Of a DNA stretch of 64,000 nt, positions 8,061 to 58,065 are shown one piece after another. Origin of the DNA: Colwellia sp. MB3u-45 (lineage in GTDB: Bacteria > Pseudomonadota > Gammaproteobacteria > Enterobacterales > Alteromonadaceae). Below the pieces are notes generated by a model, which saw only the letters and a list, made by a program, of their open reading frames with translations, did not search any database and was not told the origin of the DNA. The number at the start of each line of letters is the position of its first letter. Position 1 is the stretch's first letter. A program made the position numbers and the translations under genes. Location of the stretch: the NCBI RefSeq assembly GCF_014077005.1, contig NZ_JACGVC010000036.1, positions 1 to 64,000 of the forward strand, in the 5' to 3' direction.

Positions 8061-9023
8061 TTAAAGCATAGCCTGTAATTGTTGCTCAAGTTTAACTTGG
8101 TCAATGGTAAAGTTTCGAATACCCTCGGCTAACTTCTCTGTTGCCATGGCATCTTGGTTCATTTGCCATCTAAATTGTGCTTCACTAAGTGCAGGTTCAT
8201 CGGCTAATGGTGCATGATCGCTGAATAGTTTTTGCGATACTGTTGCCGTTGAATTAGCTAATTCATCCATCAGGTTTGGGCTAATCGTTAATCGGTCACA
8301 ACCAGCGAGTTCAAGTATCTCACCAATATTTCGGAAACTAGCACCCATGACTACAGTTTTGTGACCTTTAGCTTTGTAATAATTATAAATACTGGTTACT
8401 GATACTACGCCTGGATCTTCGCTGGCTGAGTAATCACTACGGCCAGTGTCTTTTTTATACCAATCTAAAATGCGACCAACGAAAGGTGAAATTAGGTAAA
8501 TATTGGCTTCAGCACAGGCCTGTGCCTGAGCAAAGTTAAACAACAAAGTTAAATTGCAGTTAATGCCTTCAGCTTCTAGTTGCTCTGCCGCTTTAATACC
8601 TTCCCACGTTGAGGCTACTTTGATCAAGATACGATCATTACTAATGCCAGCCTCGTTGTACATAGCGATAAGTTTATACGCTTTAGCAATCGATGCGGCT
8701 GTATCAAAGGATAAGCGCGCATCAACTTCTGTTGAAATTCTACCTGGGACTGTCTTTAAGATTTCTAAGCCGATGAGTACCGAAAACTTATCTGCAGCGT
8801 CGATGACTTGCTGTTCAGCGTTTGATGATTGAGTTTTCGCCCACGCTACTGCGCTAGTAAGTAGTTGCTGATAATTAGCTAAAGAGGCTGCCTTTAATAG
8901 TAAAGACGGATTCGTGGTGGCGTCTTGTGGTTGAAACTTAGCAATAGCTTCAATATCGCCGGTATCAGCAACAACCGTGGTCATTGCTTTTAGTTGAGAA
9001 AGTTGAGAAAGTTGATCGGTCAT
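8061..9023 (-). CDS. tal: Transaldolase
   Basis: Cytosolic enzyme of the nonoxidative pentose phosphate pathway; it moves a dihydroxyacetone unit from sedoheptulose-7-phosphate to glyceraldehyde-3-phosphate. The 320 residues match the length of the TalB type. The Schiff-base lysine is Lys135 in [12 protein letters not shown], and DATTNPSLL near residue 34 and CNLTLLFN are also conserved family blocks. It appears to be a single-gene unit. Confidence 0.97.
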
Positions 9024-9318
9024 AACATGTCCCTTGACGTTGATAATGTAATCAGGTGGTTTTATTGAGTAAATTTTGGTGAAATATTACAACATTTACA
9101 AGTATTTTGATTGGAAATAGTAAACTTTTTATCTTATTCGGCTCTATTTGTATCAAATTTTCATAATTTAGCAAGTGTGATGATGAAATAGTGTTGATAA
9201 AACACTTTATTGCCTGTGCGCGCGCTAGCGGTTCAATGAGTAATTCATAATGAAGATAATTATATTAGTTTTTTCCTGTGTTATAGTGACAAAAATTGTA
9301 AGATAGAGTAGATAAATA

Positions 9319-10095
9319 ATGTTACTTGTTGTTTCTCCGGCGAAGAACTTAGATTATGAATCCCCCGTTGCTACCGAGCTATATTCACAACCTGAACTAT
9401 TAGCAGACAGTAAAGTGCTGATGAAAAAGTGTAAAACACTAACGCCTGCGGATATTAGTTCATTAATGGCTATTAGCGATAAATTAGCCGGCTTAAATGC
9501 GGCACGTTTTGGCGAATGGGCAACGCCTTTTACGCCGGAAAATGCTCGACAAGCTGTGCTAGCATTTAATGGCGACGTATACACTGGCTTAGATGCTAAA
9601 TCGTTTAGCGAGGATGACTTTACCTTCGCTCAACAGCATATGCGGATATTATCAGGATTATATGGCCTATTAAGACCGCTCGATTTGATGCAAGCATATC
9701 GACTAGAAATGGGTAAAAAATTAGATAATGATCGCGGTAGCAATTTATATCAATTTTGGGGTGACATTATCACCGAGCATTTAAATGTCGCTATTGCTGC
9801 CCAAGGCGATAATGTGTTAATTAATTTAGCGTCAAATGAATACTTTAAAGCGGTTAATAAAAAAGTATTAAAAGCCGAAGTAATAACTCCGGCATTTAAA
9901 GATTGGAAAAATGGTCAATTTAAAATGATCAGTTTTTTTGCCAAAAAAGCCCGAGGTTTAATGGCGCGTTATATTATTGAGCACCAAATCACAGATCTTG
10001 AAAAGCTAAAAGACTTTGATGTCGCAGGTTATCAATATTCTTGCGATTTAAGTAAAGGTAATGATTGGGTATTTACCCGTAAAGAGCTAGATTAA
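9319..10095 (+). CDS. yaaA: Peroxide stress protein YaaA (DUF328/UPF0246)
   Basis: Cytosolic protein of 258 residues belonging to the YaaA family. In E. coli the homolog is induced by OxyR and limits free iron and DNA damage during hydrogen peroxide stress. The diagnostic N-terminus [15 protein letters not shown] and the blocks LYGLLRPLD and [12 protein letters not shown] are all present, as is the C-terminal [13 protein letters not shown] segment. It is transcribed alone, divergently from tal. No clear OxyR site was found by eye. Confidence 0.95.
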
Positions 10096-10875: not shown

Positions 10876-11310
10876 TTACCCCTTAGTCATAAAAAAAAGT
10901 GCTAGCACAATGAAAGCCAAGGCAATAATTCGCTTAAGATCTATTTTTCGTTCAGTCGTACCAAATAAACCAAAATGGTCGATTATTAAACTTTTAAATA
11001 CTTGGCCTGCAAGTATGCCAATCATAGTCATCGCGACCCCAATAACAGGAGTAACAACCGTTAATACAATAACGTAGATAGGCCCTAATACGCCGCCAAT
11101 GAGCAATAATGGCGGTTGTGCAAAAAAAGAAGCACTATTACGTGGGCTAAAGAACAGCATTAATAAAAAAGTCAGTGCAGCTCCAACACCAAAAATGCTC
11201 AATGTGGCCCACAGTTCACCGACTTGATTTCCTAGAGGCCCAAGTAGACCCGCTTCAACAGACAAGCCCATTCCACCTAAAACAACAATAAATATTAATA
11301 AAATTTGCAT
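10876..11310 (-). CDS. DMT-family transporter, DUF606 type, first of pair
   Basis: A 144-residue inner-membrane protein similar in plan to its downstream neighbour: five hydrophobic segments and the motif EAGLLGPLGNQVGELWATL near residue 20. It is the promoter-proximal gene of a two-gene transporter operon, whose start faces that of a LysR-type regulator across about 70 bp, the usual layout for a transporter controlled by its divergent regulator. The substrate cannot be read from the sequence. Confidence 0.83.
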   Translation of the reverse strand: MQILLIFIVVLGGMGLSVEAGLLGPLGNQVGELWATLSIFGVGAALTFLLMLFFSPRNSASFFAQPPLLLIGGVLGPIYVIVLTVVTPVIGVAMTMIGILAGQVFKSLIIDHFGLFGTTERKIDLKRIIALAFIVLALFFMTKG

Positions 11311-11407
11311 GAGACAGCCTTTAATAAATCATATTATGTAGTTTACATCAGCTCATCATCATGAAAAACGCTATAATATAGAAATGATCTTTGCAAAAGT
11401 TGCACAA

Positions 11408-12343
11408 ATGAATAATATAAATTCAATCAGTATAAAAACATTAGTTTTTTTTATTAATGTATTTAATCATCAAAGTTTTTCGGTTGTGGCGAGAAGAGAA
11501 GGTGTGTCAGCGTCTAAAGTGTCACGTATTATTAAGCAGTTAGAAGACAATTTAGGGCAGCAACTTTTTTATCGGAATACACGTGCGGTGATCCCTACCG
11601 AAGCTGCTAGGGTATTTTTGACTTATGCACAATCAATTACCGCAAGCATTAATGAGGCGCAAAATAAATTTCAAGACAAAACGCTAGAACCCGGTGGTTT
11701 AGTCAGAATAAATGGCCCGGTATTTTTTGGACAACGACACATCGCACCTTGGCTGCCTCAACTCAGCTCTCGCCACCCTAAATTACAAATAGACCTGACA
11801 TTAACGGATGATTTTATTGATCCCCATCATGATGCTACAGATATTATTTTTCGGATTGGAACCTTAACTGACTCTTCGTTTCATGCCCGTACTTTTGGCG
11901 AGCAAACCTATCATTTAGCTGCTTCTCGAGCATACATAAAAAAATATGGCATAGTGCAAAGTCCAGCAGATTTACCCGAGCATAAATGTTTAATATATAA
12001 AGGTTCATCAGGCCAAAACCGTTGGCTGTTTAAAAAAGAAAATGAAGATTGGGTGCATCAATCTATACCGGCTTTACTGACCTCTAATAATGCAGAAAGC
12101 TTGCTAGTATGCGCGCTTGAAGGCATGGGTATTGTGCTTTTTCCTGATTGGCTTATTGGAGAGCATCTCAAAAATGGTACTTTGATTAAATTATTACCCA
12201 ACTACAATACCGCTATTAAGAAAACACCTCAGCATGTTACGGCCATTTATCCTAATACCCGCCATGTATCGCTAAACGTAAGACAAATAATTGACTACTT
12301 TAGTGAAGTGTATGGCTCACCGCTTTATTGGGAACTAAATTAG
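11408..12343 (+). CDS. LysR-type transcriptional regulator
   Basis: DNA-binding regulator with an N-terminal winged helix-turn-helix (ISIKTLVFFINVFNHQSFSVVARREGVSASKVSRIIKQLE) and a C-terminal periplasmic-binding-like effector domain. From the ATG at 11408 it has 311 residues, usual for the family; an in-frame ATG at 11384 would add eight residues (MIFAKVAQ) that are not typical. Neither start has a clear Shine-Dalgarno. It is divergent from the DUF606 transporter pair, which is its most likely target. The effector is unknown. Confidence 0.9.
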   Translation: MNNINSISIKTLVFFINVFNHQSFSVVARREGVSASKVSRIIKQLEDNLGQQLFYRNTRAVIPTEAARVFLTYAQSITASINEAQNKFQDKTLEPGGLVRINGPVFFGQRHIAPWLPQLSSRHPKLQIDLTLTDDFIDPHHDATDIIFRIGTLTDSSFHARTFGEQTYHLAASRAYIKKYGIVQSPADLPEHKCLIYKGSSGQNRWLFKKENEDWVHQSIPALLTSNNAESLLVCALEGMGIVLFPDWLIGEHLKNGTLIKLLPNYNTAIKKTPQHVTAIYPNTRHVSLNVRQIIDYFSEVYGSPLYWELN

Positions 12344-49140: not shown

Positions 49141-50046
49141 CTAGTAACCCATACCAATAAAAAGTGCTCTGTCGCTTAAGTTGCCAGTAATAGCTCTACG
49201 ACCATGCAATACGCGTTTATTGTTAATAACGACTATATCGCCATCTTGCCACTGAATTTCTTGAGTATATTTTTCAGCAAGCTCAGCGGTTTTTTTCATT
49301 AATGCTTCACTCACTGGCTGACCATTAGCAAAGCTATAATTGGGTTTTTCATAATTAAAAGACGGACCTAACAGGGCGTTAGCAAAGGCGAATTGCTCAG
49401 TTTGGCTTTCTGCTTTAAACGCTCCTTTGCCCGCGCCTTCGTTAGCAAGGCCCTTAATAGGTAAACAAGGCTGAATATCTAATGCGTAATCTAAACTATC
49501 ATCAGGGTTTATTTTCCCTCTTTGATCTTGATTAATCGCTATAAAATCAGCTAAATGTTTTTCAGTTACCTCAGCTAGACAGTTAACTTCTGGGTGTTGA
49601 TTAACTACATACTGGCGCCAAAGGTGGGAAGGTAAACGTCGTGAAACAGTCACCGTTTGCTGCCATGCTTGTTGTAACTGTGCCGACATATTTTGAAAAA
49701 GTTCAGCACCGTCGCACAAGGTAGTTTGAGAACCCTGTTTAGCGCTTTTTTCACTATAAAAAGCCACCAAGTTAGGCGGAAAAGGCGTATTACCATTTTC
49801 TATATGTAAACCTACTGCTTCTGTACCCGCATTAACTTTTTGGCTAGATTTATCAGCAAATTCACGTGCGGGATCAAAAGTTAGCTCATGACAAAACTGT
49901 TTTAATAATTCACTAAATTTTGGCAAGCTAGCATCAAACCCACGCAGTAATACCCAGCCGTTATCATTTAACTTTTGTTTAGCTTGGTTAACCACTTCAA
50001 TATTATTTAGCGCTGTGTGGGTGGTAGCCGAAATAATGTTTGTCAT
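49141..50046 (-). CDS. TauD/TfdA-like Fe(II)/2-oxoglutarate dioxygenase
   Basis: A 301-residue oxygenase. The metal-binding triad is His81-x-Glu83 (VGLHIENGNTPFPP; the HxE form is unusual relative to the common HxD) and His281 in NNKRVLHGRRA; Arg293 should bind 2-oxoglutarate. It lies 30 bp after the AMP ligase gene and 87 bp before the SDR gene. The TTAGGA ribosome site supports the ATG. The substrate is presumably an amino or acyl compound activated by the ligase, but this is inference. Confidence 0.87.
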   Translation of the reverse strand: MTNIISATTHTALNNIEVVNQAKQKLNDNGWVLLRGFDASLPKFSELLKQFCHELTFDPAREFADKSSQKVNAGTEAVGLHIENGNTPFPPNLVAFYSEKSAKQGSQTTLCDGAELFQNMSAQLQQAWQQTVTVSRRLPSHLWRQYVVNQHPEVNCLAEVTEKHLADFIAINQDQRGKINPDDSLDYALDIQPCLPIKGLANEGAGKGAFKAESQTEQFAFANALLGPSFNYEKPNYSFANGQPVSEALMKKTAELAEKYTQEIQWQDGDIVVINNKRVLHGRRAITGNLSDRALFIGMGY

Positions 50047-50076
50047 ACTGATGTCCTAATAATAAATACGGTTAAA

Positions 50077-51606
50077 TTATGAATAAAGTGCAGCAAGTTT
50101 GTCTTCATAGAGCAAGGCAATATTTTTTCTTTTTATACGTCCGTTACTGGTAAGCGTATTGGACTGAGTACTAAAAGGGGCATCAGCTATTAACCAATGA
50201 TGAATTTGCGCATAATCGGGTAAGCTTTTATTACACTCATCAATAGCGTTTTGTATCGCAAGCGGGTTTTTATGACTGGCAACCACTACCGCTGACAAAG
50301 TAGGACGAGCTTCACCAAAAACCGCTACTTGCGCAATAATTGACGACGACGTTAAGCTAGCCTCAACCCATTCAGGAGAAATGTTACGACCAAAACTACT
50401 GACAATAGTGTTCTTTTTTCTGCCTGACACATAGATGAAGCCATCAGCATCGATATAGCCTAAATCACCGGTATGAATTTGTTCAGGTACTGGATTTAAT
50501 TCACCTAAATACCCTAGCATTGCCTGACCATCAATAATGATCTCGCCATCAGCAGCAATACTTACCTGCACATGAGGTAGTGCTTTACCAACACTGCCCA
50601 CTTTATTTTGTTGGGGTAAATTAAGACTGACCACCGAACAACATTCTGATAAACCATAGCCTTCATAAACAGGTAAGCCACTATCTATCGCTTGTTGCAA
50701 AATAAGTGGCGATGTTTTGCCTCCACCTAGCGCGATAAACTGTAAGCTGGCGCATTGATCTAAAACGTCTTTATTTGCTGCATGCACCAAGTATTTTAAT
50801 ATTTGAGGTAATAAAATAACGCTGCCAACCTGATGCAAAGCAATTTTGTTGACTAATTTTTCAATATCGAATTCAACATTAGACACAAAACCTAGCGTGG
50901 CTAATGGCGCGGTTATTACGGCTCCACCTCGAAGTAAGCAAATATATACCCCGGCAATATTTTCTAATAATGTCGCTAACGGCATAACGCATAAATGATC
51001 TGATCTGGGCATTTGAACCATTGAAGCTTCAATGCCTTCACACACAGCCGCAATGTTTGCACTGGATAAACAAACCCCTTTAGGCGCTCCGGTAGAGCCT
51101 GAGGTATAAGTAATTTTAGTCACGGCATTGATATCGTTAATCGCATTAATTTCACGATCAAGGCGGCAATCGCCCGATAGAGGTAATAACAGGGTGTCAG
51201 TAAGTGGTAAAAGCATAGCTGCGGCGTTATTCGCAACAGCAAAATGTAAGTGCTCGTTACTGCTAAGCGCTAGCGTTAAAGCTTGCTTGGTTATAATGGC
51301 GTCTAGTTGTGCGCTTTTCGCTAAATGTCCAACTTGTGCTGGCGTAAAAAATAGTGGAATGGGTACCAAGGTCACGCCTAAGCTAGCGGCGGCTAAATCA
51401 CAGATAATCCACTCTGAGCAGTTATCCATATATAGCCCAATGCACTGCACTTTTTCTTGGGTAAAAACCGCGGCTACACTCGCTATTTTTTGCCATAATT
51501 GCTGATTAGAAATGATGTCTTGATGATCACCCGCATCGGTAATTAAAGCAGCTTGATGAGGAAAAAAATCAGCGCGCGAGCGTAATACTTGAAACAGTTT
51601 TTCCAT
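50077..51606 (-). CDS. AMP-dependent acyl/aryl synthetase (ANL superfamily)
   Basis: A 509-residue adenylating enzyme that activates a carboxylate with ATP, giving an acyl-AMP and then a thioester. The core motifs are ITYTSGSTGAPKGVCLS (P-loop), GYGLSECCSVV and HTGDLGYIDADGFIYVSGRKKN, with the C-terminal catalytic lysine in SNGRIKRKNI. I start at ATG 51606 because AAAGGAAG lies just upstream; a start at 51630 would put that site inside the gene. First gene of the ligase-dioxygenase-SDR operon. Confidence 0.9.
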   Translation of the reverse strand: MEKLFQVLRSRADFFPHQAALITDAGDHQDIISNQQLWQKIASVAAVFTQEKVQCIGLYMDNCSEWIICDLAAASLGVTLVPIPLFFTPAQVGHLAKSAQLDAIITKQALTLALSSNEHLHFAVANNAAAMLLPLTDTLLLPLSGDCRLDREINAINDINAVTKITYTSGSTGAPKGVCLSSANIAAVCEGIEASMVQMPRSDHLCVMPLATLLENIAGVYICLLRGGAVITAPLATLGFVSNVEFDIEKLVNKIALHQVGSVILLPQILKYLVHAANKDVLDQCASLQFIALGGGKTSPLILQQAIDSGLPVYEGYGLSECCSVVSLNLPQQNKVGSVGKALPHVQVSIAADGEIIIDGQAMLGYLGELNPVPEQIHTGDLGYIDADGFIYVSGRKKNTIVSSFGRNISPEWVEASLTSSSIIAQVAVFGEARPTLSAVVVASHKNPLAIQNAIDECNKSLPDYAQIHHWLIADAPFSTQSNTLTSNGRIKRKNIALLYEDKLAALYS

Positions 51607-52047
51607 GATACTTCCTTTCAATGAATCCATTAGGATTTGATTAAAGCAAGTATCTATGACAAATCTTAACGCAGTCTTAAGTGTGAGATAAATTTCTCAA
51701 CATAAAGAAGAAAATTATGCCTTGGGTTTTTTTTACTTGATGCACTGGTAGCTATTGGCTTCGTAGGTAAGTCAAACCATTGCAAAAGGGGCTGTTAATT
51801 ATCTAGTTCTGTGATGGCCTTTACTGGCTAAGCGCGTTATTCAGTTAACTCATATGCAGCAGTAATATTGATTTTATCTTGTGTATAGTGGTAAATATTT
51901 AACGTTTTAGTACTAGGTTGTCCAGTGCTAACATTTGCCTTATATCAGGTCTGTTTAAAAGCAATAATTAAATTTATAACCAGATATGCCATTGATTTAA
52001 GTTGGTTTTTCAGGTTACCCTTGTTTGCTCTAGGCTTAAGGTTGTGT
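51607..52047. other. Noncoding gap between the ligase operon and the usher gene
   Basis: Holds the ligase promoter (right of 51606) and the 3' flank of the usher gene. No terminator that I trust was found after the usher. Confidence 0.5.
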
Positions 52048-54741
52048 CTATTTTTTAGCTTCAATTGCTGTGACCTTAAAATCAATTCCTTCATAGAAAT
52101 CTCCGGTATCTCCAGGCAGCACGTTAATGCTCAGAACATCTTTAGCAAGCGTAATTTTTTCACTGCCTAAGTAATTTATTCTTAGGTTATATTTTCCTGG
52201 CTTTAAGTCCTGTAAAACAAAAAAACCGTCATACTCAGGGCTTACGCTACTATAGTAATTACCATTTTTTTCCACAACTATCTCAACATAGCTAAAAAAC
52301 TTTTTACTTATGCTAGCGGCTATTTCTGGTAAATAAATAGATCCCATAACCAAGGATAAGGGGACAAGTCCGACAGATAGTTTTTTACCAGATGCGGGGA
52401 TCAGCTCGATAACTTCAGCACTATTCGCTCTTAGTGTTGGATCAACCATAATACCAGAATAATCATAATGCAGCTTGTTACTGCGATAAGGTGATATGTT
52501 GCTGAGATAAAAACTACCCGCGCGGTCGGTTTTTACCTTATTTTTACCTATAGCAACACCCACACCCACAACAGGTTCCTCATCGATATCTTTTTCCCCA
52601 TTGGCATTTTTATCAACAAAAATTCTTCCTTCGAGATAACCATTATCTGGATATTTGGCGTGATTGGTTAGAAAGGGTTTTTTCATATTGATCACGGTTT
52701 CATAACTCGCTCTGACCTTGTGCGGCTGAGCTCTTTTACTATCGTAATCCGCGTCTATCTTGAAAAAATCGTTAAATTTATATTCAAAAGTTATACCGAG
52801 GGTAAAATGATCACTTTTGTTATAATTTACCTCAACACTATAGGCAAAGTTTGTCTGCTGATGTAGTCTTTTTCTTAGCCTAGCGATATATTGCCATTTA
52901 GCCTCACGGCGCTGGTTATAGTTGGCATTGAGATTATAGGTAAAATCTCCCTCATTATAATCAACATCTATTTTGACTGTGTGGTTATGCTGTTGCTCGC
53001 TTTGTTTTTGTACCGTTTTGCCAAGGTCTGCTTTAATGCGCAGTACTTTGTTAACATCATAACTTACGCCGGTGTTATATATATTTTCGGTATGGTCTTG
53101 ATATTTTTTATTTGAAAACCTAAAAAAATAATCACTTCGGCCATAATTGCCACTAATCTCAACTTGTTGATAGCGGTCTTTGTTTTCATCTTGCGCCAAT
53201 AGGTGACTAAAACGCTCATAGCTGTAGAATAATTTATGGGAAAAAATTTCACTGCTCAATTCGCCAATATAGCCCTGACTTCGGTCTGCAAGAGAGTCAT
53301 AATAAGAAAGGTTAGCCACTAAGGGGACAAATAAAGTTGAAAAACGGTATGCTAGTTTATGCTTAGCATATTGATAAAGCGTGTCTTCATTGCGGGTATT
53401 ATAATAGTCAAAGTAATAACTGAGATTATTGCTTACACCGTAGGAAATCCCATAGGTTCGATCATCCCAAGCCTTATTTTCTGCTTGTGGATTTTGCCCA
53501 TAGAAAAAGTTGTAGTCCCACTCTCCCGCATTTAAAAAGTCATTACCCTGCATTACATTGACAATTTTTTCTGTTAGTAAGACACCATTTCGGTCGAATA
53601 TCTTTATTGTAAAGGCATCGTTTTGACTTCTCATTTCTAGGGTAAACTCATACTCGACTCCCTCGATACGCTGATAGTCAGCGACCTTACCATTTTGATA
53701 AATTTCAACCATAGCGTTGGCGGCTGCTCTCCCTCTAATAGTGACGTTTTGTCCGGAACGCGTCACGGTATAATCGTTGTCACTAATGGATAAGCCACGA
53801 ATGTTGCTGTTGTAGCCCAGCAGGTTATTGCCACGGATATAATTGTCTCCAATAATGAGCGTTTTATCCTGTAAAATATAAGGATATTTTAGGCTAATAT
53901 TAGCGAGGTTTTTATTGGGATAAAGGCTATGCCTGATATTAAAATCACCATAAAGCAGCTGCGCACTATACTCAAGGTCAACATTGCCCTTGTTTTGCTC
54001 TGCCCCATTTTTAAAGTAGCTACTTATATCATTAATGTCATAGCGCAGCTTAAGCATACCAAAATCGATGAGCTTTCTGTCCTCTTGCATAAAGAAGTCT
54101 TTTTCTGGTGTGGCAGACTGACTGTTTTTCTCTTCTTCGATACCTCGCTTTCTTCTTTGTGCCGCAATCCGGTAGTCTAGGGGTAGGCTAAAATCGGGTG
54201 ATATTACTAAAGTGTAACTTTCTGCCCGCCACTGAACCGCCTTAATAGGCAGCAGCTCACTGATCCCCTGAGGGTCCAAATAGATCTGGCCATCTATGAT
54301 GATGGTGTTTAGATTAGTAAGCTTTTTTGTTATATACCTTGCTTTGCTATCTGGAAAGAGACTAGCTGCCATAAAGAGTTTTATGTTTTCACCTTCAATG
54401 GACAATTTGCTATATTCGCGCAATTCACTAAAGGCTATAAAATCCTTGATTGCAATATAAATGCCGCCATCATAATCACTTTTGACCTCGTAGAACTCTT
54501 GCTTTAGGTAGCGACCAACTTTGAGGGTGATCATATCGTCAAAATACTCATCCTGTGTATTGGCGAAAGTGGGATGAATAAAAAGCAAGCTGTATAGCAT
54601 GAGGAAAACTGGACTGATTAAGCCTGTGGGCACTTTTTGAATGGCCGAAAAAAACATTACTAGGCTATCAGGAAATTTAAGCAACATTTTTAGGCCGCTA
54701 AAACGTATGTAAGCTGCAAAGGCGCAGGTGTTAAAAGGCAT
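52048..54741 (-). CDS. Divergent fimbrial outer-membrane usher protein
   Basis: Outer-membrane usher of up to 897 residues, the pore for pilus assembly. A signal peptide (LISPVFLMLYSLLFIHPTFA) follows a long atypical N-terminus; the start is uncertain, and ATG at 54657 would remove 28 residues. The family core is seen in ISLKYPYILQDKTLIIGDNY, GLSISDNDYTVT, AAANAMVEIYQNGKV, FTIKIFDRNG and LNAGEWDYNFFYGQ, followed by many aromatic-rich strands for the beta barrel. Around residues 695-745 there is an SdrD-like repeat (DKNANGEKDIDEEPVVGVGV), a calcium-type extracellular module, and the last 100 residues contain another carboxypeptidase-like beta domain. Last gene of the operon. Confidence 0.82.
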   Translation of the reverse strand: MPFNTCAFAAYIRFSGLKMLLKFPDSLVMFFSAIQKVPTGLISPVFLMLYSLLFIHPTFANTQDEYFDDMITLKVGRYLKQEFYEVKSDYDGGIYIAIKDFIAFSELREYSKLSIEGENIKLFMAASLFPDSKARYITKKLTNLNTIIIDGQIYLDPQGISELLPIKAVQWRAESYTLVISPDFSLPLDYRIAAQRRKRGIEEEKNSQSATPEKDFFMQEDRKLIDFGMLKLRYDINDISSYFKNGAEQNKGNVDLEYSAQLLYGDFNIRHSLYPNKNLANISLKYPYILQDKTLIIGDNYIRGNNLLGYNSNIRGLSISDNDYTVTRSGQNVTIRGRAAANAMVEIYQNGKVADYQRIEGVEYEFTLEMRSQNDAFTIKIFDRNGVLLTEKIVNVMQGNDFLNAGEWDYNFFYGQNPQAENKAWDDRTYGISYGVSNNLSYYFDYYNTRNEDTLYQYAKHKLAYRFSTLFVPLVANLSYYDSLADRSQGYIGELSSEIFSHKLFYSYERFSHLLAQDENKDRYQQVEISGNYGRSDYFFRFSNKKYQDHTENIYNTGVSYDVNKVLRIKADLGKTVQKQSEQQHNHTVKIDVDYNEGDFTYNLNANYNQRREAKWQYIARLRKRLHQQTNFAYSVEVNYNKSDHFTLGITFEYKFNDFFKIDADYDSKRAQPHKVRASYETVINMKKPFLTNHAKYPDNGYLEGRIFVDKNANGEKDIDEEPVVGVGVAIGKNKVKTDRAGSFYLSNISPYRSNKLHYDYSGIMVDPTLRANSAEVIELIPASGKKLSVGLVPLSLVMGSIYLPEIAASISKKFFSYVEIVVEKNGNYYSSVSPEYDGFFVLQDLKPGKYNLRINYLGSEKITLAKDVLSINVLPGDTGDFYEGIDFKVTAIEAKK

Positions 54742-54896: not shown

Positions 54897-55283
54897 TTAA
54901 TCATCATCAAGATAGTTAACTTGGTATTTAATTCTTTTGCTATGTTTACCGCTGATATTTTTTTCTCCCAGCAGTGAAAAACCAATTGTAAATTCGCCTT
55001 CGCCATATTTATTTAAAGTAATGATTTTTTGTTTAGGCTGCAGGTTTTCAATCCTGACACCCGGGGTAAGATACACGACCCCATTGGTTTTGATCTGCAA
55101 TTTCACCTGTTTATTGGCTTTGCCTTCAACGGTGATAAGTACACCCTCTTCAGGATAAACCTTCAGCCTGCTGCCGTTATAAAGATAGAGGTCTTGCAAT
55201 AGGGCATTTTTTACGCCGACTATCTCTAGTGAAAAAACCGAAGGTGCATAAATAAACACTAATAAAAATAAAAATTTGTTCAT
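54897..55283 (-). CDS. Exported small beta-rich protein of the fimbrial operon, 128 aa
   Basis: A signal peptide (KFLFLLVFIYAPSVFS) is followed by a short beta-strand-rich domain without cysteines. It lies between the pilin genes and the usher and is cotranscribed in all likelihood. It may be a tip or adapter subunit or a second chaperone-like factor. No family recognised. Confidence 0.7.
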   Translation of the reverse strand: MNKFLFLLVFIYAPSVFSLEIVGVKNALLQDLYLYNGSRLKVYPEEGVLITVEGKANKQVKLQIKTNGVVYLTPGVRIENLQPKQKIITLNKYGEGEFTIGFSLLGEKNISGKHSKRIKYQVNYLDDD

Positions 55284-55346
55284 TGCTTGGTAACCAGGTT
55301 AAAAAAGGCAACTATCAAGTTGCCTGAATAATGATTAAGTTTATGC

Positions 55347-55808
55347 TTAACTTGTAACTTTAGTCACCGTTGTATCAGCGATAGCATCATAATTTACTGC
55401 AATGGTAATAATTTCACTAACATCAGCATCGGTCACTTTAGCTGTATCTAGGCCAACATTAAAAGTCAGAGCTTTCGATGTACCTGTATCGCCAAAAGCT
55501 ATTGTTGAACCGGTCGTATCACCATCCAAAGTAGCCAAGTCACCATCACTTGTAACTGAGTAAGTAAATGTTTCATCAGCTTCACCAACGACGGTAGCAA
55601 TAACCGCTTCAGTTGAAATAACTGAGTCAGTGTAAACATCGCCAAAGTCGATTGTTGCTGTATCTACCGTGACAGAAATTGGTGTTACATAATGAGCAAC
55701 AACCTTTAAGGTATCGCTTACTTGCCCATCTAAGGTCGCAGAATCATTCGCAGCCATTGCTGTTGAAGAGATGGCTAGTATTGATGTTGCTAATAATAAT
55801 TTTTTCAT
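55347..55808 (-). CDS. Probable major pilin of the chaperone-usher system, 153 aa
   Basis: A signal peptide (KKLLLATSILAISSTAMA) leads to a mature Thr/Asp/Val-rich beta protein without cysteines: ISVTVDTATIDFGDVYTDSV and then ITIAVNYDAI. It is paralogous to the next gene, with the same IDFGDVY block, which is similar to DUF4402-like pilins. ATG 55808 has a GAGAT site; 17 extra upstream codons are open but unlikely. Confidence 0.78.
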   Translation of the reverse strand: MKKLLLATSILAISSTAMAANDSATLDGQVSDTLKVVAHYVTPISVTVDTATIDFGDVYTDSVISTEAVIATVVGEADETFTYSVTSDGDLATLDGDTTGSTIAFGDTGTSKALTFNVGLDTAKVTDADVSEIITIAVNYDAIADTTVTKVTS

Positions 55809-55866
55809 TTTTATCTCACTTGTATTGCTTTGATGATGAATAAACTGCCTTTTTATCAAAGGCAGC

Positions 55867-56289
55867 CTATTCGGGGATGTCGTTGTAGGCCACCAGTACC
55901 GTAATTGTCGCAGACAAATCGCTGCTCATATCACGGGTACTAAGGTCTACATAAAATTCATGGGCTTGGTCAGCCCCGTTTGCTGTTGCTACATAAGTCA
56001 TGGTATTTGTTGTATAGCCGGTGTTGGCCGTGCGCGACACTTGTAAAACATTACTGTTGTCGTCATTACTTATTTCGACGGTATAGTCATAGCCACTCTC
56101 GGCATTTACCGTAAAATCAACCACTACACTGTCTACTTCGCTATCACGGTACACATCGCCAAAATCAATACTTGTAACAGCAAGCGAGAGCGATATTTTT
56201 TTAACCGCCTCACCATTGATATAAAAAGACCCTTCTTCAGCGGCCAAGTAGCTTGAAAAAAGTAATAATATTACAGCGAGTTTACGCAC
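55867..56289 (-). CDS. Probable minor pilin of the chaperone-usher system, 140 aa
   Basis: Signal peptide (LAVILLLFSSYLAAEEG) and a mature domain with SLAVTSIDFGDVYRDSEVD and ITVLVAYNDIPE, paralogous to the major pilin. The start is a GTG at 56289, 11 bp after the chaperone stop, without an obvious ribosome site, so it may be translationally coupled to the chaperone. Confidence 0.75.
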   Translation of the reverse strand: MRKLAVILLLFSSYLAAEEGSFYINGEAVKKISLSLAVTSIDFGDVYRDSEVDSVVVDFTVNAESGYDYTVEISNDDNSNVLQVSRTANTGYTTNTMTYVATANGADQAHEFYVDLSTRDMSSDLSATITVLVAYNDIPE

Positions 56290-56300
56290 TTTTAGCGCAG

Positions 56301-57017
56301 TTAAAGAACAAAGCTAAATGCTTTAGAAAAATCAATTTTGTCATTGGCAAAAACAATTTCTACATAATCAGTATCTGTCTTCATCGCTATCGATTGATTG
56401 AGCTTAACCAGCTGCTCGCGATAGAAACCTTTTTTAAAGTTTTCTTCTTTAATCAATGCGTTATTTTGGTAAAACTTAACAGCAATATTAAGAGGATAAG
56501 AATAATTCCCCTCATTTTTAAGCTCACCTTGTAATTGATAACCTTCATCGGCTTTTACCATCCGTAAATTTTCAAAATCCATAGCACTTTTAAGTTCACC
56601 TTTTCTGGCATAGTAGGGGATCCCTATGTTCATCAACATGGTAACTTGACCAGAATTTTTTCTTGGTGGCAGCTCTTTAAATACCAGTAGCGCAACATAT
56701 TCTCCATCAGCTAAGTCTTTTTTTATTCTGGGCGCTATCCTTACTTGGATCTGACCTTTAGGTGGTATCAATACTATTTTGGGATAAGCGACCAATTGAT
56801 CGCCCAAGTAATACTTGGCTTTAGCCCATGGCGGTTTTTCAAAGTCGACCCTAACTCGAACAGGCTTGTTGCTCTGATTGACCAGGGTAGTGTCTTGCGT
56901 GACCGGTTGGTCCAGATCTACCCCAAAACTTGTTTGGGTGACCGTAAAGGCACTAAAGCTGCTAATGGAATAAGTGCAAAGTAATAGTGCAATAACACCT
57001 TGTAAGTAATTTTTCAT
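56301..57017 (-). CDS. Periplasmic pilus chaperone, PapD/FimC-like
   Basis: A chaperone of 238 residues. Signal peptide (LQGVIALLLCTYSISSFSA) then two immunoglobulin-like domains: SFGVDLDQPVTQDTTLVNQS and IPPKGQIQVRIAPR with DLADGEYVALLVFKELPP, which matches the conserved EY...L...PP pattern of pilus chaperones. First gene of the operon. ATG 57017 is chosen; a TTG at 57026 has better spacing to AGGA and is possible. Preceded by a c-di-GMP riboswitch and terminator. Confidence 0.82.
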   Translation of the reverse strand: MKNYLQGVIALLLCTYSISSFSAFTVTQTSFGVDLDQPVTQDTTLVNQSNKPVRVRVDFEKPPWAKAKYYLGDQLVAYPKIVLIPPKGQIQVRIAPRIKKDLADGEYVALLVFKELPPRKNSGQVTMLMNIGIPYYARKGELKSAMDFENLRMVKADEGYQLQGELKNEGNYSYPLNIAVKFYQNNALIKEENFKKGFYREQLVKLNQSIAMKTDTDYVEIVFANDKIDFSKAFSFVL

Positions 57018-57075
57018 ATCAATCAAATAATTCCTGCTAGATTTTTATCTTTAACGAATTTTACAAAATTCAGGC

Positions 57076-57105
57076 AAAAAAAATGGCCTTCATAAAGAAG
57101 ACCAT
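57076..57105 (-). terminator. Riboswitch expression-platform terminator before the chaperone gene
   Basis: On the minus strand ATGGTCTTC and GAAGGCCAT form a 9-bp stem (one G-T) with loop TTTAT, followed directly by eight T. It lies between the c-di-GMP aptamer and the chaperone start, about 58 bp upstream of the ATG, with no gene before it to terminate. Confidence 0.85.
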
Positions 57106-57148
57106 AGGTAAAAAAATAGCTCAGGAAACAAAAAGTGTTAATTCACTC

Positions 57149-57216
57149 TTGGCAACTGGCTACCATTTTACAGGCCCTTTAGCTTTGCGTCCCTAGGTTT
57201 CCCTAGGTTTGCGATT
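57149..57216 (-). promoter_or_regulatory. Cyclic-di-GMP-I (GEMM) riboswitch aptamer
   Basis: Read on the minus strand, the core runs GCAAACC, TAGGGAAACCTA (a hairpin with GAAA tetraloop), GGGACGCAAAGC, TAAAGGGCCTGTAAAAT, GGTAGCC, AGTTGCC. GGACGCAAAGC and GGTAGC match the well-known Vibrio Vc2 c-di-GMP aptamer closely, including the tetraloop, the GGCCT tetraloop-receptor side and the closing GCAA/TTGC pair of P1. A terminator and the chaperone gene follow. Confidence 0.9.
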
Positions 57217-57777
57217 TATTTACTTTCTAAACAGTACAACGAGATTAGATAACCGCCATAAAAAGCGTTTATCTGATAATGACTTATGTTACTTCTCTGT
57301 ACTGATCGATAATTAAGCTTTGCTATATTATTTATTAGCCTTACCGTATCACAAATATGGTGTATGTTAAAACTAGCTACTTATGATGAATATTCAGACA
57401 GTTTAAAACTTGTATTGTACAAGCTCAGTTTATAGTGTCGTTATCGAACCGCTAGTGCTTGTAAACTCATAAAGTAGGCAAGAGAAAGGATTAACACAAA
57501 AGTGTCACATCAGAAAATAAGCGCTCATTTTGAACACATTTTAAACAATAAAAAATGTCAGGTTGGAGAAGTTAATGTCGGAGAAATAGACTAGTGGCTG
57601 GGTAATTAAGCTGATTTTTTGTAAAAATTTCTGTTACTTAATTCATGGGAAAATTAGGATAAAAAATAATTTTTAATGAGAGGGTGGTGGAGTCTGTAGA
57701 ACAAGCAGGTTTTCTCTCCCAATTTAGCCACATGAAAATGCAAGGCTATTTGTTCTCACCTATTAAACATTTTGCCT
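57217..57777. other. Noncoding region between the riboswitch and the 97-aa gene
   Basis: Holds the promoter of the fimbrial operon on the minus strand. Otherwise no gene or RNA was recognised. Confidence 0.5.
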
Positions 57778-58065
57778 ATGTATAATGCAACGATAGAAAG
57801 GATTATGAATGAGTTGGTCTTAATAACACCACAGAAAAAAAATAGCAGCCTTGAGGTAAACGCGTTACTAATTGAGGGGTTACTTAGGGATGGTGGTTTT
57901 ATCAGAAGAGATAGTACCAATCATTTAATGACCTTAGAAGCTTGCATTACCATAATAAAAATACTGGTGGATGAAATTAATTTACAGTACAAAAGTGATA
58001 GTGAGATTAATGTTTTTATTGAATTAACAAACGAAGAAAAAGATTTTTTAAGCTCAATTTTTTAA
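57778..58065 (+). CDS. Hypothetical protein, about 95 aa
   Basis: I do not recognise this family. The protein (MYNATIERIMNELVLITPQK...) is soluble, without signal peptide or membrane helix, and is helix-rich. There is an ATG at 57778, and a TTG at 57772 is also open; neither has a clear ribosome site. It is followed at once by a good terminator, which supports it being a transcribed gene. It sits between the fimbrial operon and the large lipoprotein gene and could be a regulator. Confidence 0.55.
   Translation: MYNATIERIMNELVLITPQKKNSSLEVNALLIEGLLRDGGFIRRDSTNHLMTLEACITIIKILVDEINLQYKSDSEINVFIELTNEEKDFLSSIF

Follow-up and report, generated by a model that had tools for sequence, protein, structure and literature searches.

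A variant GEMM-I riboswitch leader with a conserved C at the ligand-specificity position precedes a fimbrial-type operon in Colwellia and related genomes

The second messenger that a GEMM-I RNA reads is set by a single letter. According to excerpts of the articles cited here and below, G20 (Vc2 numbering) touches one guanine of the ligand (PMC6456294), and cGAMP sensing is linked to A at this position (PMC6456294; PMC7266159 on variants in general). An A20G change switches a Geobacter riboswitch (PMC6456294), and a G to U change at the matching base weakens the binding of Vc1 and abolishes that of Vc2 (PMC4744006). In the literature examined, as far as these excerpts go, G and A are the only position-20 types described, and no account of a natural C20 GEMM-I RNA was found. 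Among the open-licence papers listed for riboswitches with chaperone-usher and c-di-GMP, or for Colwellia with riboswitches, none describes such a leader, judging by titles and the beginnings of abstracts.

We analyzed a stretch of 64,000 nucleotides from Colwellia sp. MB3u-45 (contig NZ_JACGVC010000036.1, positions 1 to 64,000), hereafter the window, which is contig C36 of a 4.17-Mb genome. Its minus strand carries a leader with the following features:

57148–57223, minus strand: GEMM-I-class aptamer (RF01051), 62.4 bits against a gathering cut-off of 35, full model 1–87
57213, minus strand: ligand-specificity position (Vc2 G20), here C, as in all 12 leader copies
57154–57184, minus strand: aptamer P3 in a short form with an 8-nt loop, TGTAAAAT; 6 nt, not 7, from G83 to position 91
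57131–57150, minus strand: hairpin "P4" directly 3' of the aptamer, where the P1 3' strand would be; 7 pairs, 97% of cells paired
57173–57178, minus strand: antiterminator 5' strand AGGGCC, identical with the P3 5' strand; pairs with the terminator 5' arm in every one of the 12 copies
57108–57122, minus strand: linker GAGCTA...TTTTAC, alternative partner of the P3 loop and P3 3' strand according to the alignment helices
57098–57103, minus strand: antiterminator 3' strand GGTCTT, part of the terminator 5' arm; standard pairs in each of the 12 copies
57076–57105, minus strand: intrinsic terminator; 9-bp stem (57105–57083) and eight T (57083–57076)

A sequence-only reading of this region had recognized a GEMM-type aptamer on the minus strand from GCAAACC, a GAAA-capped hairpin, GGGACGCAAAGC and GGTAGCC. 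All of these landmarks are present, and the RF01051 covariance model matches the aptamer with an E value of 7.9e-10 for the whole window, in which it is the sole Rfam match over the cut-off. The hairpin and T run of the terminator also lie exactly where that reading had placed them. The RF01051 class is common in this setting, since 38 of the 60 genomes searched, including that of the window, have at least one match. The window genome has three, and its other two aptamers (L001 and L003) carry G at position 20.

Twelve intact copies of the leader were found in seven genomes, belonging to three genera and two families, and in all seven genomes at least one copy precedes the operon. Searching 395 family genomes (own included) with R1, a model that spans the complete leader, retrieved six copies in five of them at 173–187 bits; the next best match scored 41.8 bits, although 81 of the 395 genomes had a hit of some kind at E 0.001 or better. 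Elsewhere in the order, one genus of a second family has the leader in two of 24 genomes at 128–139 bits, 11 of the 24 having some match. One of these relatives, G498, has two leaders before an intact operon and one intact plus one decayed leader before a broken, incomplete second operon, and G587 has three tandem leaders before its operon. Two decayed copies, G498c and G498e, were left out of the 12. The 12 copies are not independent, because the tandem copies are duplications. Tandem leaders lie at 9432–9585, 8959–9113, 2763–2914 (decayed) and 2429–2583 of locus L147, and at 12162–12315, 11679–11833 and 11226–11380 of locus L146. Among the family relatives, the aptamer precedes four of five operons (in G012, G126, G176 and G213). 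No aptamer was detected, even at E 1, upstream of the second G213 operon (L069, contig G213:C1), which is complete; the operon can therefore live without leader control. Outside the phylum, plasmid pILYOP01 of Ilyobacter polytropus carries a leader (L154, 5990–6140) that shares 80% identity with the query across 87% of its length and has A at position 20. The genes behind it are annotated as encoding an ATP-binding protein, response regulators and an HD-domain phosphohydrolase. Its terminator stem has been rebuilt, yet the antiterminator pairing of P3 is kept with the register shifted by one. The match suggests a transfer of the regulatory RNA itself.

The GEMM-I core, whose conserved positions were taken from an excerpt of PMC3764141, is kept in the 12 copies: all have P2 with its GAAA loop, and C44, A47–A49, G83 and C92 are invariant. 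In the alignment of the 12 copies, four of the six P2 pairs show changes on both sides. These observations bear on the reading that the aptamer is dead, binding nothing and leaving the leader as a fixed attenuator. Such decay would be in line with the loss of G20, with the two visibly decayed copies of one relative (G498c and G498e) and with the lack of a detectable P1, no consistent helix having been found between the 5' flank and the 16 nt from C93 on in the 12 copies; the Rfam RF01051 model itself contains no P1 pairs. Against it, the other core letters, including the GAAA loop, are kept in every intact copy and P2 changes on both sides, and we regard a dead aptamer as very unlikely. On sequence grounds, we conclude that the leader is a genuine GEMM-I-class riboswitch of variant form, its specificity base carrying a conserved change.

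This base, the letter just before GCAAA, was assigned by anchoring on the Vc2 landmarks given in an excerpt of PMC3764141, namely the GAAA loop (32–35), C22, A23, A25, G42, C44, G45 and A47–A49. C20 is constant in the 12 leader copies across the two families, in contrast to the letters just 5' of it, most of which vary. By comparison, 59 parsed rows of other GEMM-I aptamers from related genomes comprise 51 G, 8 A and no C; these rows leave out the window locus (L002), L136–L138, which are without the motif, and loci identical over the first 80 letters, some of which came from different genomes. One A site, in G623, was entered twice (L124 and L132), so that the count becomes 58 sites, 51 with G and seven with A, and A is over-represented because four of the seven A sites (L119, L122, L124 and L125) came in through a search for letters other than G. 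A non-G pattern at position 20 run on 394 genomes of the order gave seven sites, four with A and three with C, all three in this leader. With a pyrimidine pattern run on 369 genomes of the class, the window itself was the only match. Both patterns miss some aptamers because the length of P2 is fixed in them, and many of the genomes covered may have no GEMM-I aptamer at all. No full C20 motif was found in viral contigs. One of the A20 aptamers, at about position 1500 of L122 (reverse strand) in another family of the order, lies close to ORFs with CxxCH haem motifs, a setting that recalls the Geobacter cGAMP regulon.

An ordinary G20 c-di-GMP switch and a cGAMP-type GEMM-Ib with A20 are both ruled out by the C present in 12 of 12 copies. 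Two pairing partners for C20 were considered and rejected: G91 does not vary among the 12 copies, yet it is also frequent elsewhere (35 of 59 rows), and position 94 (G94) varies among the copies. We considered the short P3 as a unique feature as well. The spacing from G83 to position 91 is 6 nt in the 12 copies and 7 nt in 56 of the 59 other rows, the remaining three rows not being parsed cleanly. This candidate was dropped, as Ilyobacter and Cetobacterium plasmids and viral contigs have a short P3 too; C20 alone therefore stays special. Position 20 is G in 12 and A in five of the 17 short-P3 matches from plasmids and viral contigs, and never C. Two pairs of the P4 hairpin that follows the aptamer show changes on both sides in the 12-copy alignment.

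An invariant C across three genera, beside ordinary G20 copies in the window genome, is a natural experiment. It might mean that the aptamer has changed its ligand, C92 reading one guanine and C20 the other base, and that it would sense a mixed cyclic dinucleotide or a relative of one rather than c-di-GMP. The constancy of C20 amid variable neighbors and the two G20 aptamers within the same genome speak for this reading, as does the separation of c-di-GMP from cGAMP sensors by G or A at this very position (PMC6456294, excerpt). It is weakened by the lack of a known ligand proposed for C20, by the EAL and HD-type genes lying nearby, which favor c-di-GMP, and by the failure to find a CD-NTase of the SMODS type in the seven host genomes. 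Overall, we hold a changed ligand to be a tentative, minority explanation.

The mode of switching was addressed by comparing the folds open to the leader. The terminator stem has nine pairs, four of them G-C, and a loop of 5; it is kept in 12 of 12 copies, that of the window included, with 97% of cells paired. Patterns alone say less: in the 3 kb scanned, five terminators were found against 2.2 expected in shuffles, and no promoter was established, promoter-like sites numbering eight against 10.0 expected in shuffles. The sequence-only reading had not resolved an antiterminator by eye; modeling of alternative folds gave a possible one in every copy (12 of 12). In this fold, AGGRCC of P3 pairs with GGYCTT in the 5' arm of the terminator, and the linker, rich in T, takes up the P3 loop and, through its GAGCT, the 3' strand of P3. 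The first two of these helices (alignment columns 46–51/122–127 and 53–58/112–117) have 100% of their cells paired in the 12 copies, and the third (columns 62–65/105–108) has 96%. The strands hardly vary, so that the antiterminator yields little covariation: the variable pair of the AGGRCC/GGYCTT helix is GU in seven copies, GC in three and AU in two, and one pair of the third helix is seen as UG, UA and CG.

When the aptamer was locked in silico, the terminator was favored in 13 of 13 leaders by 1.0–6.5 kcal/mol (mean 3.9), and by a mean of 3.6 kcal/mol with the stem two pairs short. The minimum energy in the window is -47.7 with the terminator versus -39.5 with the antiterminator. Judged by minimum energy, the terminator is the best equilibrium fold even when ligand is absent, and the antiterminator wins in only four of 13 leaders when the stem is two pairs short; an OFF design therefore needs kinetic control. 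Of the alternative hairpin, only the 6-bp helix with the terminator arm truly excludes the terminator, which can form beside the remainder. Controls were run on seven of the 13 leaders, where permuted stems matched the direction effect in 5–50% of 60 trials and shuffled linkers in 0–25% of trials. Shuffling the linker tail (300 trials, 12 copies) gave an equally stable antiterminator in 0.7–31%. The aptamer and the terminator occupy separate stretches of the leader and can form together. The leader thus has in silico the design of an OFF switch, with a terminator compatible with the bound aptamer and an antiterminator that competes with both; the single-sequence controls are weak.

In the mechanism that we propose, both strands and the loop of P3 would pair, without ligand, with the linker and the terminator 5' arm. 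This alternative fold would break P3 and block the terminator, and the resulting long antiterminator hairpin would let the fimbrial operon be transcribed. Ligand binding to the newly made aptamer would hold P3 and leave the terminator arms free, and RNA polymerase would stop at 57076. Because P3 is held, the terminator free and the polymerase stopped, the ligand would switch the operon OFF. We infer from these models that the ligand probably turns expression OFF; the prediction, which is not proof, draws on the agreement among related copies and on kinetic control of the kind that an excerpt of PMC9262584 describes for Cd1.

The fold models also bear on the opposite direction. A leader through which the ligand raises expression would be expected if c-di-GMP promotes attachment, which it commonly favors. 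Vc1 and Geobacter pilM are ON switches (PMC4744006; PMC9262584, excerpts). In the window leader, however, the aptamer and the terminator can coexist, as in the OFF switch Cd1 and unlike in pilM; fold modeling found no pairing by which a held aptamer would break the terminator, and all 13 leaders lean OFF. We therefore consider an ON switch unlikely.

Downstream of the terminator lies an operon of five genes:

56301–57026, minus strand: PapD-like periplasmic chaperone, 241 aa; PF00345 29.2 bits, cut-off 23
55867–56289, minus strand: pilin-like small exported protein, 140 aa; 33% identity to the 170-aa protein
55347–55859, minus strand: pilin-like protein, 170 aa counted from the listed TTG; its profile with the 140-aa protein matches FimG
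54897–55283, minus strand: exported protein, 128 aa; no Pfam match; kept in the relatives' complete operons
52048–54741, minus strand: divergent usher-like outer-membrane protein, 897 aa; weak FimD match

The first gene downstream was expected to encode a pilus chaperone, and its PapD_N domain bears this out; a TTG at 57026 and an ATG at 57017 are both possible starts. Comparison by hhalign with FimC alone or EcpB alone returned nothing, and no fimbrial chaperone was among the PDB matches by sequence. The wider claim of a chaperone-usher operon holds in part. The joint profile of the two pilin-like proteins matches FimG weakly (E 6e-4) and neither has a Pfam pilin match; several relatives' ORFs for the 170-aa protein begin further in (MKKLLLATS...). 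The usher is not confirmed. Neither the 897-aa protein nor those of two relatives match PF00577, and the 897-aa protein does not match EcpC; its match to FimD covers 63 columns (residues 291–353) at E 0.0055 with an hhalign probability of 6.7%. Its predicted structure has a pLDDT of 30.5 and was left out of fold searching, and a plasmid search with it gave one partial match with 21% covered. We call the protein, marginally, usher-like by place, size and the weak FimD match, and for this reason and because of the weak pilin match we write fimbrial-type rather than proven chaperone-usher operon.

Chaperone matches of some kind occur in 44 of 295 family genomes (own included). Close matches (64% or more) are limited to five genomes, its own, G012, G126, G176 and G213 (two), and the five-gene set of chaperone, two pilin-like, 128-aa and 897-aa proteins is kept in all close-match operons; the leaders were inspected in these, the other 39 genomes (24–38% identity) being left out. 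A terminator-like hairpin with a T run lies at 55325–55306 (minus strand), between the 170-aa pilin-like and the 128-aa genes, and may set a high pilin dose. Genes for an AMP-ligase and a TauD-type dioxygenase (49141–51630, minus strand) come after the operon and are kept adjoining in the sister strain, Colwellia sp. MB02u-6 (G012, L064); they have no match in the other relatives' operon stretches compared.

On the other side of the leader, two features point to a gene pair known from the relatives:

57681–57779, plus strand: relic of an EAL gene, C-terminal 33 codons; 76% identity to residues 214–246 of the sister EAL protein
57772–58065, plus strand: 97-aa ORF; follows the EAL gene, intact, in the sister strain

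A winged-helix/EAL gene pair lies beside the leader in four relatives, G126, G176, G213 (C17) and the sister strain G012. The assignment relies on Pfam in G126 and G012, and in G176 and G213 on protein alignment for EAL and on inspection by eye for the winged helix. In G126, G176 and G213 (C17), the two genes are just upstream of the leader in the same direction, joined in G126 and G176 by a short third gene; the leader may lie within a longer transcript there, because the upstream genes share its direction. In the sister strain, the pair is divergent and has its own leader copy ahead (L065, 12817–12892), about 290 bases before the first gene. The EAL proteins keep most residues of what we take to be the catalytic motifs; the arginine of the presumed first motif is absent, and one copy is without the first glutamate of that presumed catalytic set. 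Alignment of window positions 57678–57780 with L065 12750–14272 indicates that about 1.5 kb of the sister strain, comprising the second leader copy, the winged-helix gene and most of the EAL gene, is absent from the window strain. No close ortholog of the sister EAL gene was found elsewhere in the window genome, where the other matches are 25–33% identical and belong to frames at least 594 codons long.

A cyclic-dinucleotide link is thus drawn by the EAL gene in four relatives and the HD-domain phosphohydrolase gene behind the Ilyobacter leader. A signal of the CBASS type was ruled out on the one family searched, SMODS, which has no CD-NTase at E 0.001 in any of the seven host genomes. The sequence-only reading had proposed RNA-level switching of fimbriae by c-di-GMP. 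Its riboswitch and terminator ahead of a fimbrial-type operon stand, by score, by conservation in seven genomes and by the alternative fold open to every copy; c-di-GMP as the ligand is less certain than proposed, with C20 in 12 of 12 copies. Since mutation of base 20 to U harms binding in Vc2 and Vc1 (PMC4744006, excerpt), binding of c-di-GMP may be poor or absent, and C20 leaves the ligand uncertain between c-di-GMP at changed affinity and another cyclic dinucleotide. The aptamer, the terminator, their conservation with the operon, C20 and the two competing folds are read directly from the letters; we infer the direction, the ligand and the effect on fimbriae. Our preferred reading, to which we give a probability of roughly 0.6, is a transcription-attenuating GEMM-I riboswitch with a variant pocket that the ligand turns OFF, this ligand being most likely c-di-GMP, with its affinity altered by C20, or failing that a closely related cyclic dinucleotide. 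Bolder, and in our view doubtful, is the proposal that C20 represents a natural third GEMM-I type beside G20 (c-di-GMP) and A20 (cGAMP), reading the second base in an unusual way and acting OFF through a held P3 on fimbriae, perhaps also on the winged-helix/EAL pair of the sister strain.

If c-di-GMP still binds the C20 aptamer, the pocket rule must widen; if it does not, a new signal is implied. Fimbriae turned OFF by the ligand would, if confirmed, oppose the usual link between high c-di-GMP and attachment. The nearby EAL gene of the relatives offers a ready feedback model: under OFF control, c-di-GMP would shut both the fimbriae and, in the sister strain, a putative phosphodiesterase, which would make a self-reinforcing on/off circuit.

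Among known systems, the c-di-GMP-I riboswitch (RF01051, with Vc2 as structural reference) shares with the window leader its fold, P2 with the GAAA loop, C44, A47–A49, G83 and C92. The window leader differs in C20, in a P3 that is 1 nt shorter on its 3' side and in the hairpin right after the aptamer, and no P1 was found in it. The cGAMP-sensing GEMM-Ib of Geobacter has the scaffold in common with it and likewise a non-G at position 20, which is A20 there (PMC6456294, excerpt) versus C20 here. With the short-P3 GEMM-I RNAs of Fusobacteriota plasmids and viral contigs it shares the P3 core, GCTAwAGGG...AGCCAGTT, but the downstream genes are different. Geobacter pilM, an ON switch, has an arrangement of aptamer and terminator unlike that of the window leader (PMC9262584, excerpt). 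In design the leader resembles Cd1, the OFF switch of a flagellar operon in Clostridioides difficile, as described in an excerpt of PMC9262584 rather than from the Cd1 sequence: in both, aptamer and terminator can coexist and compete with an antiterminator. The window leader differs from Cd1 in its target, a fimbrial-type operon, and in using the strands of P3 as its switching strands.
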